The notes beneath the pieces are model-generated. The model did no database searches. It saw only the letters and a list, made by a program, of their open reading frames with translations, and was not told the DNA's origin. Shown piece after piece: positions 13,937 to 20,370 of a stretch of 64,000 nt of DNA. The translations under genes and the position numbers were made by a program. The DNA is from Chryseolinea soli (GTDB lineage: Bacteria > Bacteroidota > Bacteroidia > Cytophagales > Cyclobacteriaceae): contig NZ_CP032382.1 in NCBI RefSeq assembly GCF_003589925.1, positions 372,001 to 436,000 of the forward strand. Direction: 5' to 3'. Positions within the stretch are counted from its first letter, which is position 1; each line of letters begins with the position of its first letter.

Positions 13937-13953
13937 GTGCAAACGTTTCGCTA
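13937..13953. promoter_or_regulatory. Candidate LacI-family operator, copy 1
   Basis: The 17-bp sequence GTGCAAACGTTTCGCTA lies between the divergent susC (start 13821) and NagX-like (start 14019) genes. It has the central CpG and the 8-bp palindrome AAACGTTT typical of LacI/CcpA-type sites. The identical 17 bases recur at 20354-20370, upstream of the GH109-like gene and next to a lacI-type gene. Identity is directly seen; operator function is inferred. Confidence 0.72.
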
Positions 13954-14018
13954 ACACTGCCGGGATTTGTCGAAGCTTGTACTTCTGCTTACCATCGTAT
14001 TCTAAATACCCGCTATAA

Positions 14019-15122
14019 ATGACCTTGCCCCAGACACCTTCCCGCTTGCTTTCGCTCGACTTCATGCGCGGTTTGATCATGATTTTCCTCATGGGCGAAA
14101 GCATCGGCCTCTATGAACATTTGTTTGAAGCCACCGAGGGCACCGCACTGTCGCACGTGTTTATTCAATTCTTCCACCACCCTTGGAACGGCTTGCGCTT
14201 CTGGGACCTCATCCAACCCGGCTTTATGTTCATGGCCGGCACGGCACTGGCCTATTCGTTGCACCGCCAGCAACAACAAGGCATGGCGTGGAGCGAATCG
14301 TTCAAAAAGACATTGAAGCGGTCAGCATGGCTCTTCTTCTGGGGCGTCCTGGACTATGCTGTTCGCAAGGAAGGATTGGCGTTCGAGCTTTGGGATGTGC
14401 TCACGCAACTCTCGTTCACTACACTAGTGGCATTTTTAATTTTTAGGTGGTCGATGTCGGCACAACTGGTGTTCAGTTTCGGATTGTTGTTGCTGACGGA
14501 GATACTCTATCGCTACACCAACGTGCCCAATTTCGACCAACCGTTCACCGACCAACACAACTTCGGCAACTATGTCGACCTCCTGTTGATGAACAAAATA
14601 AACGACGGCGGCTGGGTAGCCATCAATTGCTTGCCCACCGCTGCCCACACCATCTGGGGCGCCATCGCCGGAAAATTATTGCTTTCGGACAAATCTGAAG
14701 AACAAAAATTGAAATGGCTTGTTACCGCAGGCGTTGTTGCACTCGTGCTGGGATTCGCGATGGACTTCACGATCACCCCCATCATAAAACGCATCGCCAC
14801 CAGTTCATTCGTGCTCGCCTCCGGCGGATGGTGCCTGCTCGCATTGGCATTGTTCTATTGGTGGATCGACATCAAAGGCCATCGCAACCACCTCCAATTC
14901 TTCACCATCGTGGGCATGAACTCCCTCTTCATCTACCTCTTCATGGAAATCGTCGCCAGCCGCTGGTTCAACGGCTACATCAGCGCCATCACCAACGGAC
15001 TGATGAGCTTCGTAAACACGCCCGTGTTGTTGATGGGATTCATCACGTCGTTGGTGTTGTTTGCGCTGGAGTGGGGGATGTGTTATTGGCTTTTTAAGAA
15101 GAAGATATTTTTTAAGGTCTAG
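14019..15122 (+). CDS. DUF5009 / NagX-HGSNAT-like multi-pass membrane protein
   Basis: Inner-membrane protein of 367 residues with about ten hydrophobic segments. It belongs to the group that includes bacterial NagX and human heparan-alpha-glucosaminide N-acetyltransferase (COG4299/DUF5009). The N-terminal hallmark RLLSLDFMRGLIMIFLMGES and the later motif INCLPTAAHTIWGAIAGKLL are typical. Members are linked to amino-sugar uptake or trans-membrane acetylation; the actual activity here is unknown. It is divergent from susC and shares the intergenic operator candidate, about 66 bp upstream of its start. This supports a place in the same sugar regulon. Confidence 0.8.
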   Translation: MTLPQTPSRLLSLDFMRGLIMIFLMGESIGLYEHLFEATEGTALSHVFIQFFHHPWNGLRFWDLIQPGFMFMAGTALAYSLHRQQQQGMAWSESFKKTLKRSAWLFFWGVLDYAVRKEGLAFELWDVLTQLSFTTLVAFLIFRWSMSAQLVFSFGLLLLTEILYRYTNVPNFDQPFTDQHNFGNYVDLLLMNKINDGGWVAINCLPTAAHTIWGAIAGKLLLSDKSEEQKLKWLVTAGVVALVLGFAMDFTITPIIKRIATSSFVLASGGWCLLALALFYWWIDIKGHRNHLQFFTIVGMNSLFIYLFMEIVASRWFNGYISAITNGLMSFVNTPVLLMGFITSLVLFALEWGMCYWLFKKKIFFKV

Positions 15123-15562
15123 GGCAGCACCAAGGAAAATTTACTTCCGTCAACGCCTGACCTATACATAGCGACAACTTAAAATCGCCCTTTGTTTATA
15201 GACAAAGAATAGCACATACTTTTTCTATCGATATTCAGCTCATGCTAAGTCGGATGGCGGATTGATTGATCAGGTATAGTATGACCCTACCGCGAATTTC
15301 TGAGGTTGTTCCCGCAAACCAATGCGCGGTTTTAAGATAATTGCATTTTACACATATCGGAAGTAGATTTCACCCTAGAGGTTCGATCTGCTCTCGCGGG
15401 CCACAAAGGCAGCGTAGCGTATGATGGGCGGCACGCTGATCTTGTCAGCATTGCATGTCTGAAAATATTTTTGTACTTTTTTAGTGTCGTACGTTTCGGT
15501 TTTTTCAATTCAGAGTATTCGTTCTCTAAACGCTATTACCTGTTACATTAAAAACCGTTTCC
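15123..15562. other. Intergenic stretch without recognised genes
   Basis: About 440 bp between the NagX-like gene and the RAYT transposase. I see no convincing reading frame, terminator hairpin or copy of the repeats found elsewhere in the window. It presumably holds the promoter of the transposase gene. Confidence 0.5.
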
Positions 15563-16009
15563 ATGAGCAGCTACCGTCGCGTAATCTATCACATTGTATT
15601 TGCCACGATCAATCGACAACCAACAATTAGTGAACAACATTGTCAAGAGTTGTACCGCTACATTGGCGGAGTAATCGCAAAGAGGAATTCCATACCTTAT
15701 GAAATCAACGGAGTGGGTGATCATATCCACATTCTGTCGGACCTAAATCCCTCCATTTCACTCGCCAACTTTGTCAAAGAGATAAAAATCGCCAGCAATG
15801 CCTGGATGAAAGAGAGTGGCAAGTTTCCGCTCTTTGATGGATGGCAAGAAGGTTATAGTGCTTTCACCTATTCGTTACGCGAAAAATCCACGTTGGTCCG
15901 CTATGTTCTAAATCAAAAGGTCCACCACAACACCGAGTCTTTAGAAGAAGAATATAAGCGGCTATTAAAAGAGCATCAAATACGTTACGATGACCGATAT
16001 TTGTTCTAA
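15563..16009 (+). CDS. IS200-like / REP-associated tyrosine transposase (RAYT)
   Basis: Single-strand DNA transposase of the Y1 HUH superfamily, 148 residues. The HUH metal-binding motif is DHIHIL (about residues 53-58). The C-terminal half has the family pattern WQEGYSAFTYS followed by VRYVLNQKVHH, where the Tyr is the likely nucleophile. No tnpB, and no IS605-type second gene, lies beside it. Seven bases after the stop codon begins a 248-bp element with perfect terminal inverted repeats and internal hairpins. This arrangement fits a domesticated RAYT acting on REP-like palindromes rather than a classical insertion sequence. The start at 15563 gives the conserved opening MSSYRRVIYHIVFAT. Confidence 0.88.
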   Translation: MSSYRRVIYHIVFATINRQPTISEQHCQELYRYIGGVIAKRNSIPYEINGVGDHIHILSDLNPSISLANFVKEIKIASNAWMKESGKFPLFDGWQEGYSAFTYSLREKSTLVRYVLNQKVHHNTESLEEEYKRLLKEHQIRYDDRYLF

Positions 16010-16015
16010 ATGACT

Positions 16016-18548: not shown

Positions 18549-18787
18549 GCTGAATTCTTGCTAAATGCCTCACAACGTGTAACGGTAGGGGCTCGCCATG
18601 CTAATATATAAATAAGGGCATCATAAGGCAAAGCAGGACAGGGACAAATCCTTGCCTGTCGCGAGAGATCATTAAACCGGCAAAGCTTTGGTTCCAGGAA
18701 ACCTCAATCTCCAATCCGCTCGAAGGATGCAAAGAAGGCAAAAAAAAGGAAATGCGCTGTCCTTTGCGCGGGCGTTGAATTCATTTT

Positions 18788-18880
18788 AAACCACAAAGAC
18801 GCAAAGGACGCAAAGAAGACGCAAAGGAGGTTTATATTTCTTTGCGTTTACTTTGCGCTCTTTGCGCCTTTGCGGTGAAA
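18788..18880. repeat. Dispersed imperfect inverted repeat, family 2, copy 1
   Basis: The left arm ACCACAAAGACGCAAAGG faces a right arm CTTTGCGCCTTTGCGGT, with further CGCAAAG units between. A related element with CACAGAGGCGC arms lies at 46840-46905. Both sit just downstream of a minus-strand gene's end and upstream of another minus-strand gene's start region. The rest of the 340-bp gap (18549-18887) shows nothing else I can name. Confidence 0.65.
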
Positions 18881-18889
18881 TGTATTTTG

Positions 18890-20272
18890 TCAATACTCGC
18901 TCTCCAACCCAAACACAGGCTTCCGCGTCTTCCACGCACCTTTCGTGAAGTCGGGGATGTCCTGCACTTGTCCTTTCTCTGCGATAGATTTTTCGCTCAG
19001 TGGTGTGATGGCATACCATGTCGCCAAATCATACACGTCTAGCGGGAAAGGGATGTCGCGTTTGATGCATTCGATGAAGGCGTTGTCGACGAAGAAGTCC
19101 ATGCCGCCGTGGCCGCTGTCGGCGGCGTTGGTTTCGTATTTTTTCCAGAGCGGGTGGTCGTATTCTTCCATGTACTTCTTGGGGTTCTCCCATTCGTGGT
19201 GGGGACTCTTGTCTTCGAAGTGGATGAAGCCTGACTCGGGTTCGCCTGCGCTAAAGTCTTGCCAGATGCCGTTGGTACCTTGCACGCGGAAGCCCAGGTT
19301 GTAGGGACGCGGACTCGAGGTGTCGTGCGTGAGCAGGATGGTTTCTTCGTTGGCGGTTTGGATTTGGGTGGTCACAATGTCGCCCAACTTGAAGGTGGCC
19401 TTGGCGTTGGGATGGTTGGGGCCGCCTTTGGGATTGTTGACGATGAAGCGGTGCAAGCCCCGCGACTTGGTGGCGATGGACGACAAACGCGTGAGCCGGT
19501 TACCGCGGTTGATATCGATCATGTTCGCCACCGGGCCGAGGCCGTGGGTGGGATACAACTCTCCGTTGCGAGCCTGGTGTTGCAGTGTTCTCCACTTGGC
19601 TTCGCTAAATCCTTTCTCTCCAAACTCGACGCCTTCGGTGTGGGGTGCGCCGCCGTTGAAGAGCACTTCGCGCAGGTCGTGTTCGTAGCCGCCCTGCACG
19701 TGGAGCAGTTCGCCGAAGAGGCCTTTCTTCGCCATGTTGAACACCGCCATGATGTCGCGGCGGTAGCAAACATTTTCGAGGGCCATGAGGGGCACCTTGG
19801 TTTTTTCATAGGCGTTCACAAAGTCCCAGCTGTCCTGGAGTTTCATGCCGCCGCACACTTCCATGGCCACGATCTTGCCGGCGTTCATGGCGTCGACACC
19901 GTGGGGTAAGTGCCAGTCCCAGGGGGAGGCCACGAAGACGGCGTCGATGTCGTCGCGTTTGAGGAGATTTTTGTAGTCGTTGGGGCCGTTGGTGTATTCC
20001 ACCGGGGCTTTCCGGTTGTATTTGGCGACCAGGGCCTGGGCCATGGCCATCATTTGTTTGTCGGGGTCGGCCATCGCGATGATTTCCACGTCGGTGCGCT
20101 TGAGCATTTCGTGGAGGTGGGTTTGGCCGCGGAGGCCTACGGCGATGAAGCCGAGGCGTACTTTGGTTTTCTTTTCTTCGGCGTAGGCTTTGAGGTCGGC
20201 AGCACTAAGGGTGAGGGCGGCGCCGGCCATGAGCGTTTGCTTGATAAATCTTCGGCGGTCTACGGTCATCAT
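18890..20272 (-). CDS. Tat-exported Gfo/Idh/MocA protein of the GH109 (alpha-N-acetylgalactosaminidase) type
   Basis: 460-residue NAD-dependent protein with a twin-arginine signal ([20 protein letters not shown]). It has a Rossmann domain ([14 protein letters not shown]) and the C-terminal oxidoreductase fold. The block [57 protein letters not shown] is the one I associate with glycoside hydrolase family 109, which removes terminal alpha-GalNAc through an NAD redox cycle. GH109 assignment is from remembered motifs, not a search; another hexosamine or related sugar is possible. Its promoter region carries the second copy of the LacI-type operator, 82 bp upstream of the start. The divergent neighbour is the lacI-type gene. 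Confidence 0.85.
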
Positions 20273-20353
20273 AGGAGTAAGATAGGTGTATTTCTATTCG
20301 ATTTCTATTCAATTTCTTTTCGATTTCTGGCATTTTGCCTGTGAATCAAAATC

Positions 20354-20370
20354 GTGCAAACGTTTCGCTA
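20354..20370. promoter_or_regulatory. Candidate LacI-family operator, copy 2
   Basis: GTGCAAACGTTTCGCTA, identical over 17 bases to 13937-13953, lies 82 bp upstream of the GH109-like start and about 345 bp upstream of the LacI-type gene. The rest of the 442-bp divergent region (20273-20714) shows no reading frame or second copy of the site. Position next to the regulator gene makes that protein the obvious candidate for binding. Confidence 0.75.

Follow-up and report, generated by a model that had tools for sequence, protein, structure and literature searches.

A 17-bp sequence, GTGCAAACGTTTCGCTA, occurs unchanged in two intergenic regions between divergent genes within the 64,000-nucleotide stretch of Chryseolinea soli analysed here (contig NZ_CP032382.1, positions 372,001 to 436,000; hereafter the window). 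Copy 1 lies between a susC gene and a nagX-like gene, and copy 2 lies between a GH109 glycosidase gene and a lacI-type gene ( Table 1 ). The two 17-mers are very probably operators of the LacI-type protein encoded beside copy 2, which would be a local, autoregulated repressor of amino-sugar genes. This assignment is based on the sites themselves, which recur nowhere else in the genome as exact copies, on their conservation together with these genes, and on the families to which the genes belong. The regulon would comprise susCD, the nagX-like gene, the GH109 gene and the lacI-nahK-galM genes. The sugar would be an N-acetylhexosamine, probably N-acetylgalactosamine (GalNAc).

We infer a mechanism that extends from DNA binding, and repression rather than activation, to the effector, the operon limits and the regulation of both units that diverge from each site. 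A LacI dimer on the palindromic AAACGTTT core would repress two divergent promoter regions, namely those of susCD (with a VCBS repeat protein) and the nagX-like gene, and those of GH109 and lacI-nahK-galM. The repressor would let go once an amino sugar, or the phosphate of one, accumulates; a GalNAc derivative is the most likely signal. Release would turn on, all together, the regulator gene and the genes that serve uptake, cleavage of alpha-GalNAc, phosphorylation and mutarotation.

The two sites in the window and in the genome

Both copies hold the AAACGTTT core, an even palindrome with a central CG, as expected of a LacI operator. An earlier note on this DNA had described the site as centrally palindromic. 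The inner 8 bp form a perfect palindrome, and the outer arms are asymmetric (RTGC / CGCTA). Copy 1 is located 115 bp from the start of susC and 65 bp from that of the nagX-like gene. The corresponding distances of copy 2 are 81 bp to GH109 and 344 bp to lacI.

The earlier note had also considered an exact 17-bp match very unlikely by chance in 64 kb, which gives the identity too much weight. At least one exact repeat pair of at least 17 bp was present in 17 of 60 windows simulated with a first-order Markov model (mean 0.45 pairs), and the real window contains five such pairs, the operator pair counted among them. For GTGCAAACGTTTCGCTA itself, the chance expectation in the window was a mean of 0.21 matches, two matches being reached in 3 of 100 shuffles; no third match was found in the window at up to three mismatches. 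The exact identity by itself is moderate evidence, and the strength of the case lies in position and conservation. The simulated pairs would be consistent with a repeat that arose by chance coincidence or as a fragment of a mobile repeat. The flanks of the two copies differ, however, both copies are intergenic, the genome carries no family of copies, and in relatives the counterparts stand ahead of these genes too, again accompanied by a second element at fixed spacing. We therefore regard an accidental or mobile origin as hardly credible.

The two copies, whose identity at two divergent promoters the earlier note had reported correctly, are the only exact ones in the 8.24-Mb genome. A scan of the genome with up to three mismatches gave 19 matches, consisting of the two exact copies, one match with two mismatches and 16 with three, while the reversed control sequence gave 31. 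Since the control exceeds the real matches, there is no genome-wide family of GTGCAAACGTTTCGCTA. Many unrelated genomic copies, named in advance as a reason to abandon the regulon, were thus not found beyond control level. Among the 17 near matches, 15 lie within open reading frames (ORFs) of at least 100 amino acids (aa), some of which may not be genes; one lies at the 3' end of an ORF and one between ORFs. A genome-wide regulon was rejected on the basis of these two results. A shorter 11-mer, TGCAAACGTTT, gave nine genomic matches, and its control gave six. Beyond the two operators, three of its matches fall in no ORF of 110 aa or more (L192, L193 and L195), and the match in L192 stands 110 bp ahead of a gene that resembles, by eye, an alpha-glucan phosphorylase gene.

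The gene next to copy 2 is the sole LacI-family gene of the window, as had been noted, and one of eight genes with a LacI-type helix-turn-helix (HTH; PF00356) in the genome. Its product has an N-terminal LacI HTH and a periplasmic-binding-protein-like sensor domain, the arrangement that defines the family.

Conservation of the sites with the regulator gene

A scan of the named genomes found four orthologues of the LacI-type protein, in C. serpens (99% identity), C. lacunae (88%) and two metagenome-assembled genomes (MAGs; 77%). The window and these four relatives together contain ten sites, two per genome, of which one belongs to the susC side and the other to the lacI side. The site is thus kept upstream of the same genes in all five. 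Both sites are found in C. serpens, where each reads GTGCAAACGTTTCGCCA, and in the two MAGs (L022 and L023). The 21-kb C. lacunae locus L021 has the lacI-side site only. A search with a composite pattern (core plus second element) located the susC/nagX site of this species (L185) some 57 kb away from lacI, flanked by nagX and susC (each 84% identical). This site, a two-mismatch match to the operator pattern RTGCAAACGTTTCGCYR, was not among the sites used to write the composite pattern. In both MAGs, a rightward gene resembling, by eye, an FAD-dependent oxidase gene lies between the lacI-side operator and lacI (L022 7789-9246; L023 up to 9866). Since the site precedes this gene, the transcript would reach lacI through it.

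The conserved arrangement bears on how far the control extends. It would be conceivable that control is confined to the susC and lacI arms, and that nagX and GH109 share the intergenic regions but have promoters of their own. The second element indeed lies towards susC at one site and towards lacI at the other, and L023 has kept its lacI-side site with no ORF of at least 120 aa divergent from it. On the other hand, the nagX-susC divergon is retained in all five genomes, even where it is far from lacI. In the distant loci described below, cores also occur upstream of GH109 and nagX genes, though a divergon core is counted there for both arms. We consider control of two arms only to be possible but somewhat doubtful.

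The sites were then compared with genomes in which the orthologue is absent. Among 20 genomes searched with the pattern RTGCAAACGTTTCGCYR, the four that carry the orthologue all gave exact matches and the 16 that lack it gave none, a contrast that is partly circular because the pattern was written from those sites. Further matches, with a single mismatch, numbered two in G163 and one each in G136, G183 and G018, those of G183 and G018 being inside ORFs; G163, G136 and G183 are three of the genomes with the orthologue, and the first two belong to the genus of the window. The composite pattern, also written after seeing loci, gave ten matches in 196 genomes of the family and three for the control. 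Each of the four genomes with the orthologue holds two of them, eight in all; the two strays in the other 192 lie within an ORF (G009) and between ORFs (G032).

We further collected more distant homologues. Matches to the LacI-type protein were found in 26 of 390 genomes at the order level (E <=1e-85, own genome and G183 included) and in 13 of 395 at the class level (E <=1e-100, own genome included). The best 20 of the 24 order-level matches that remain with own genome and G183 set aside, together with all 13 class-level matches, gave a distant set of 33 loci (44-56% identity), while 20 of the 21 in-genus matches to LacI paralogues served as a paralogue set. Some collected loci end at contig ends. 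With the five close loci added, the core was found within -600 to +100 of lacI in 20 of 38 loci (44-100% identity). In 2000 draws of random 700-bp windows from the same loci, it was present in 2.2 loci on average and in 7 at most. In the 33 distant loci, a core stood within 300 bp upstream of susC in 12/22, lacI in 15/33, GH109 in 9/19, the kinase gene in 4/10 and nagX in 2/6 cases, as compared with 9/357 for other ORFs, a class that may include non-genes; the count leaves out ORFs preceded by under 200 bp of sequence.

GH109, kinase and nagX genes were neighbours of lacI in 20, 10 and 6 of the 33 distant loci, respectively, and each in none of the 20 paralogue loci. Neighbouring susC genes (21/33 distant loci, 11/20 paralogue loci) say little, because they are common to both sets. 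A galM gene stands beside lacI in three of the five close loci, none of the 33 distant loci and three of the 20 paralogue loci. These results support the earlier proposal of a local regulon that would be governed by the adjacent LacI-type protein.

In ten distant loci, two cores 21-22 bp apart were found in tandem a short way upstream of lacI. Eight of these loci have them in the lacI-GH109 interval, at 22 bp (L106, L107, L108, L110, L111, L113, L115 and L116), which suggests that binding may be cooperative in those eight relatives.

Several facts weigh against the assignment of the sites to the neighbouring lacI gene. The core is generic, a related core is present near lacI in 7 of the 20 paralogue loci, and the genome carries seven other LacI-family genes. 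It would therefore be possible that the sites belong to one of those seven proteins and that the neighbouring lacI gene controls something else. Three members of the genus with other LacI genes but without the orthologue (G015, G093 and G182), however, have no RTGCAAACGTTTCGCYR match below two mismatches, although this comparison is partly circular. The composite pattern, as described above, is found twice in each orthologue-bearing genome and hardly elsewhere, and some of the paralogue cores have different flanks, such as CGCAAACGATTGCG and GTTCAAACGTTTGAAC. We consider it improbable that the operators belong to another LacI-family protein.

Other facts also speak against control by the adjacent LacI-type protein. 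The distance between copy 2 and lacI is 344 bp in the window and 822 bp in C. lacunae. C. serpens is too close for strong evidence. No core was found near lacI in 18 of the 38 homologue loci. Among the distant loci, few have a nagX neighbour and none a galM neighbour, and susC is frequent beside paralogues as well. In addition, RTGCAAACGTTTCGCYR, the composite pattern and the core pattern were all written after some or all of the tested loci had been seen, and the counts obtained with them are not blind.

A second element beside each operator

The earlier note had described the two promoters by their operators. The operators stand as described, but an element that the promoters share had been overlooked. 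In the window, TTGTKGATAAA is found at two places only, one next to each operator, and the spacing is equal. Read in the orientation of the element, what follows is susC at copy 1 and the lacI unit at copy 2. In the ten sites of the five genomes, the distance from the start of TGTKGATAA to the palindrome centre is 15 bp in nine and 16 bp in one. Relative to the element, the asymmetric 17-mer is reversed between the two promoters, while its centre stays at the same distance. Such an arrangement would be expected of a protein that recognises the palindrome and an element that determines the direction.

In the genome, TTGTKGATAAA is mildly commoner than its reversed control (25 matches and 13, respectively). 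A general promoter element was not supported, as 17 of the 25 genomic matches lie inside ORFs of at least 120 aa. Fitting the element by eye to the -7/-33 promoter consensus of Bacteroidetes gave no convincing match. The susC-side element contains TTATCCACA, which resembles the DnaA-box consensus. Just after the core at 14470 in L023, the second element forms an inverted repeat, TGTGGATAAA ... TTTATCCACA, hinting that a protein may bind here and that the element may not be a core promoter.

We tentatively propose a composite switch, in which TTGTKGATAAA, held at a fixed distance, would bind a second protein or would be an unusual core promoter, and would set the direction of transcription together with the LacI dimer; on the available evidence this is rather unlikely as it stands. 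Control by paired operators is an ordinary and known kind of gene regulation, and the flanking element is the newest part of the system. Its fixed spacing offers a concrete entry to the promoter architecture of this group.

The predicted regulon and related systems

Coordinates of the genes and sites are listed in Table 1. The gene set named in the earlier note, consisting of transporter, NagX-like protein and glycosidase, agrees with the present one as far as it goes. It was too narrow, as it lacked lacI, the NahK-like kinase gene and, less surely, galM.

Table 1. Genes and sites of the two divergent units, with positions in the window
Feature	Position	Strand	Evidence or remark
FG-GAP/VCBS, ASPIC/UnbV repeat protein	5460..8942	-	family matches
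SusD-type lipoprotein	9130..10704	-	PF07980, PF14322
SusC/RagA-type TonB-dependent outer-membrane transporter	10723..13821	-	TIGR04056, 850 bits (cut-off 368)
Directional element TTGTGGATAAA	13920..13930	-	susC sense; TGTGGATAA starts 15 bp after operator centre
Operator copy 1 GTGCAAACGTTTCGCTA, predicted	13937..13953	+	susC / nagX-like divergent region; counterparts L020, L022, L023, L185 (C. lacunae)
NagX-like (HGSNAT-related) membrane protein, putative glucosamine N-acetyltransferase	14019..15122	+	NagX model 136 bits; HGSNAT E 7e-4
GH109 glycosidase, alpha-N-acetylgalactosaminidase-like	18890..20272	-	PF01408, PF21252 (278 bits); 2ixa E 1.4e-188
Operator copy 2 GTGCAAACGTTTCGCTA, predicted	20354..20370	+	GH109 / lacI divergent region; lacI-side counterparts L020, L021, L022, L023
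Directional element TTGTTGATAAA	20376..20386	+	lacI sense; spacing equal to copy 1
LacI/GalR-family regulator	20715..21731	+	PF00356 55 bits (cut-off 27), PF00532 121 bits (cut-off 22)
N-acetylhexosamine 1-kinase (NahK)-like, directly after lacI	21760..22842	+	4ocu E 1.4e-56; PF01636
Aldose 1-epimerase (GalM-like), overlaps kinase end	22839..23930	+	family matches

The putative glycosidase has the Rossmann domain and the C-terminal domain of GH109, and its match 2ixa is a solved alpha-N-acetylgalactosaminidase. The NahK-like kinase belongs to the APH type, and all three of the sequences that it matched in the PDB are N-acetylhexosamine 1-kinases. The NagX model aligned with the NagX-like protein over its full length, but NagX activity is only a guess because the score is far under the model's 480-bit cut-off. 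The VCBS repeat protein gene and susCD probably form one operon; a homologue of this protein is also encoded downstream of susD in L022, L023 and L185. galM would be co-transcribed with the kinase gene and lacI, and it is assigned to the regulon less surely than the other genes. For the use of amino sugars, probably alpha-GalNAc glycans, in Chryseolinea and related Bacteroidetes, the analysis thus names a regulator, an operator and a set of genes that can be tested.

The predicted system shares features with several known ones. Operators of LacI regulators are typically even palindromes with a central CG, mostly 30-140 bp before the start codon, and 22 bp is among the reported peaks of intersite distance (PMC4052901). 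The promoter-proximal sites, the position of lacI beside genes of sugar uptake and breakdown, and the tandem cores of the ten distant loci agree with this picture, while the asymmetric outer arms and the flanking second element differ from it. In Shewanella, NagR is a LacI-type repressor of the N-acetylglucosamine/chitin pathway, including nagX (PMC2996990). The likeness lies in a LacI-type regulator and an amino-sugar pathway, which includes nagX there and would include a nagX-like gene here; the present set differs in including GH109, the NahK-like kinase and SusCD.

Within the phylum, the BT4240-50 locus of Bacteroides thetaiotaomicron combines SusCD homologues with a GH109 alpha-GalNAcase and a GalNAc kinase of the APH type, which have their likes in the present gene set, and also has GH2 and M60-like peptidase genes (PMC11992087). 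In contrast to the system described here, the paper on that locus contains neither 'repressor' nor 'LacI', and 'anti-sigma' appears in it once. LacI regulators of sugar use are known in Bacteroides, but the four in a published table of regulators are all for uronates, N-acetylglucosamine is assigned to NanR of the ROK family, and GalNAc goes unmentioned there (PMC3878776). No published description of the present regulator was found in the literature searched, which left most subscription journals outside.

Further features were observed around the regulon genes. A Flavo-1 RNA-like element (RF01705) is located at 20557-20644 (+), between operator 2 and lacI (33.7 bits, E 0.00044), and a weaker match (25.8 bits) at 9607-9688 in C. 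lacunae L021; no match reached the 42-bit gathering score in the window, L020 or L021. Between the two halves of the regulon (region 15563-16263) lies a Y1/IS200-like transposase gene (PF01797), followed by 28-bp inverted repeats (16016-16043 / 16236-16263). C. serpens has a gene 72% identical to this transposase gene at the same place. Beyond galM, three ORFs of 133-141 aa starting at 24021, 24573 and 25879 (region 24021-26304) are alike by eye, and the first matches DUF3592. An exact 34-bp direct repeat occurs at 24184 and 24760.

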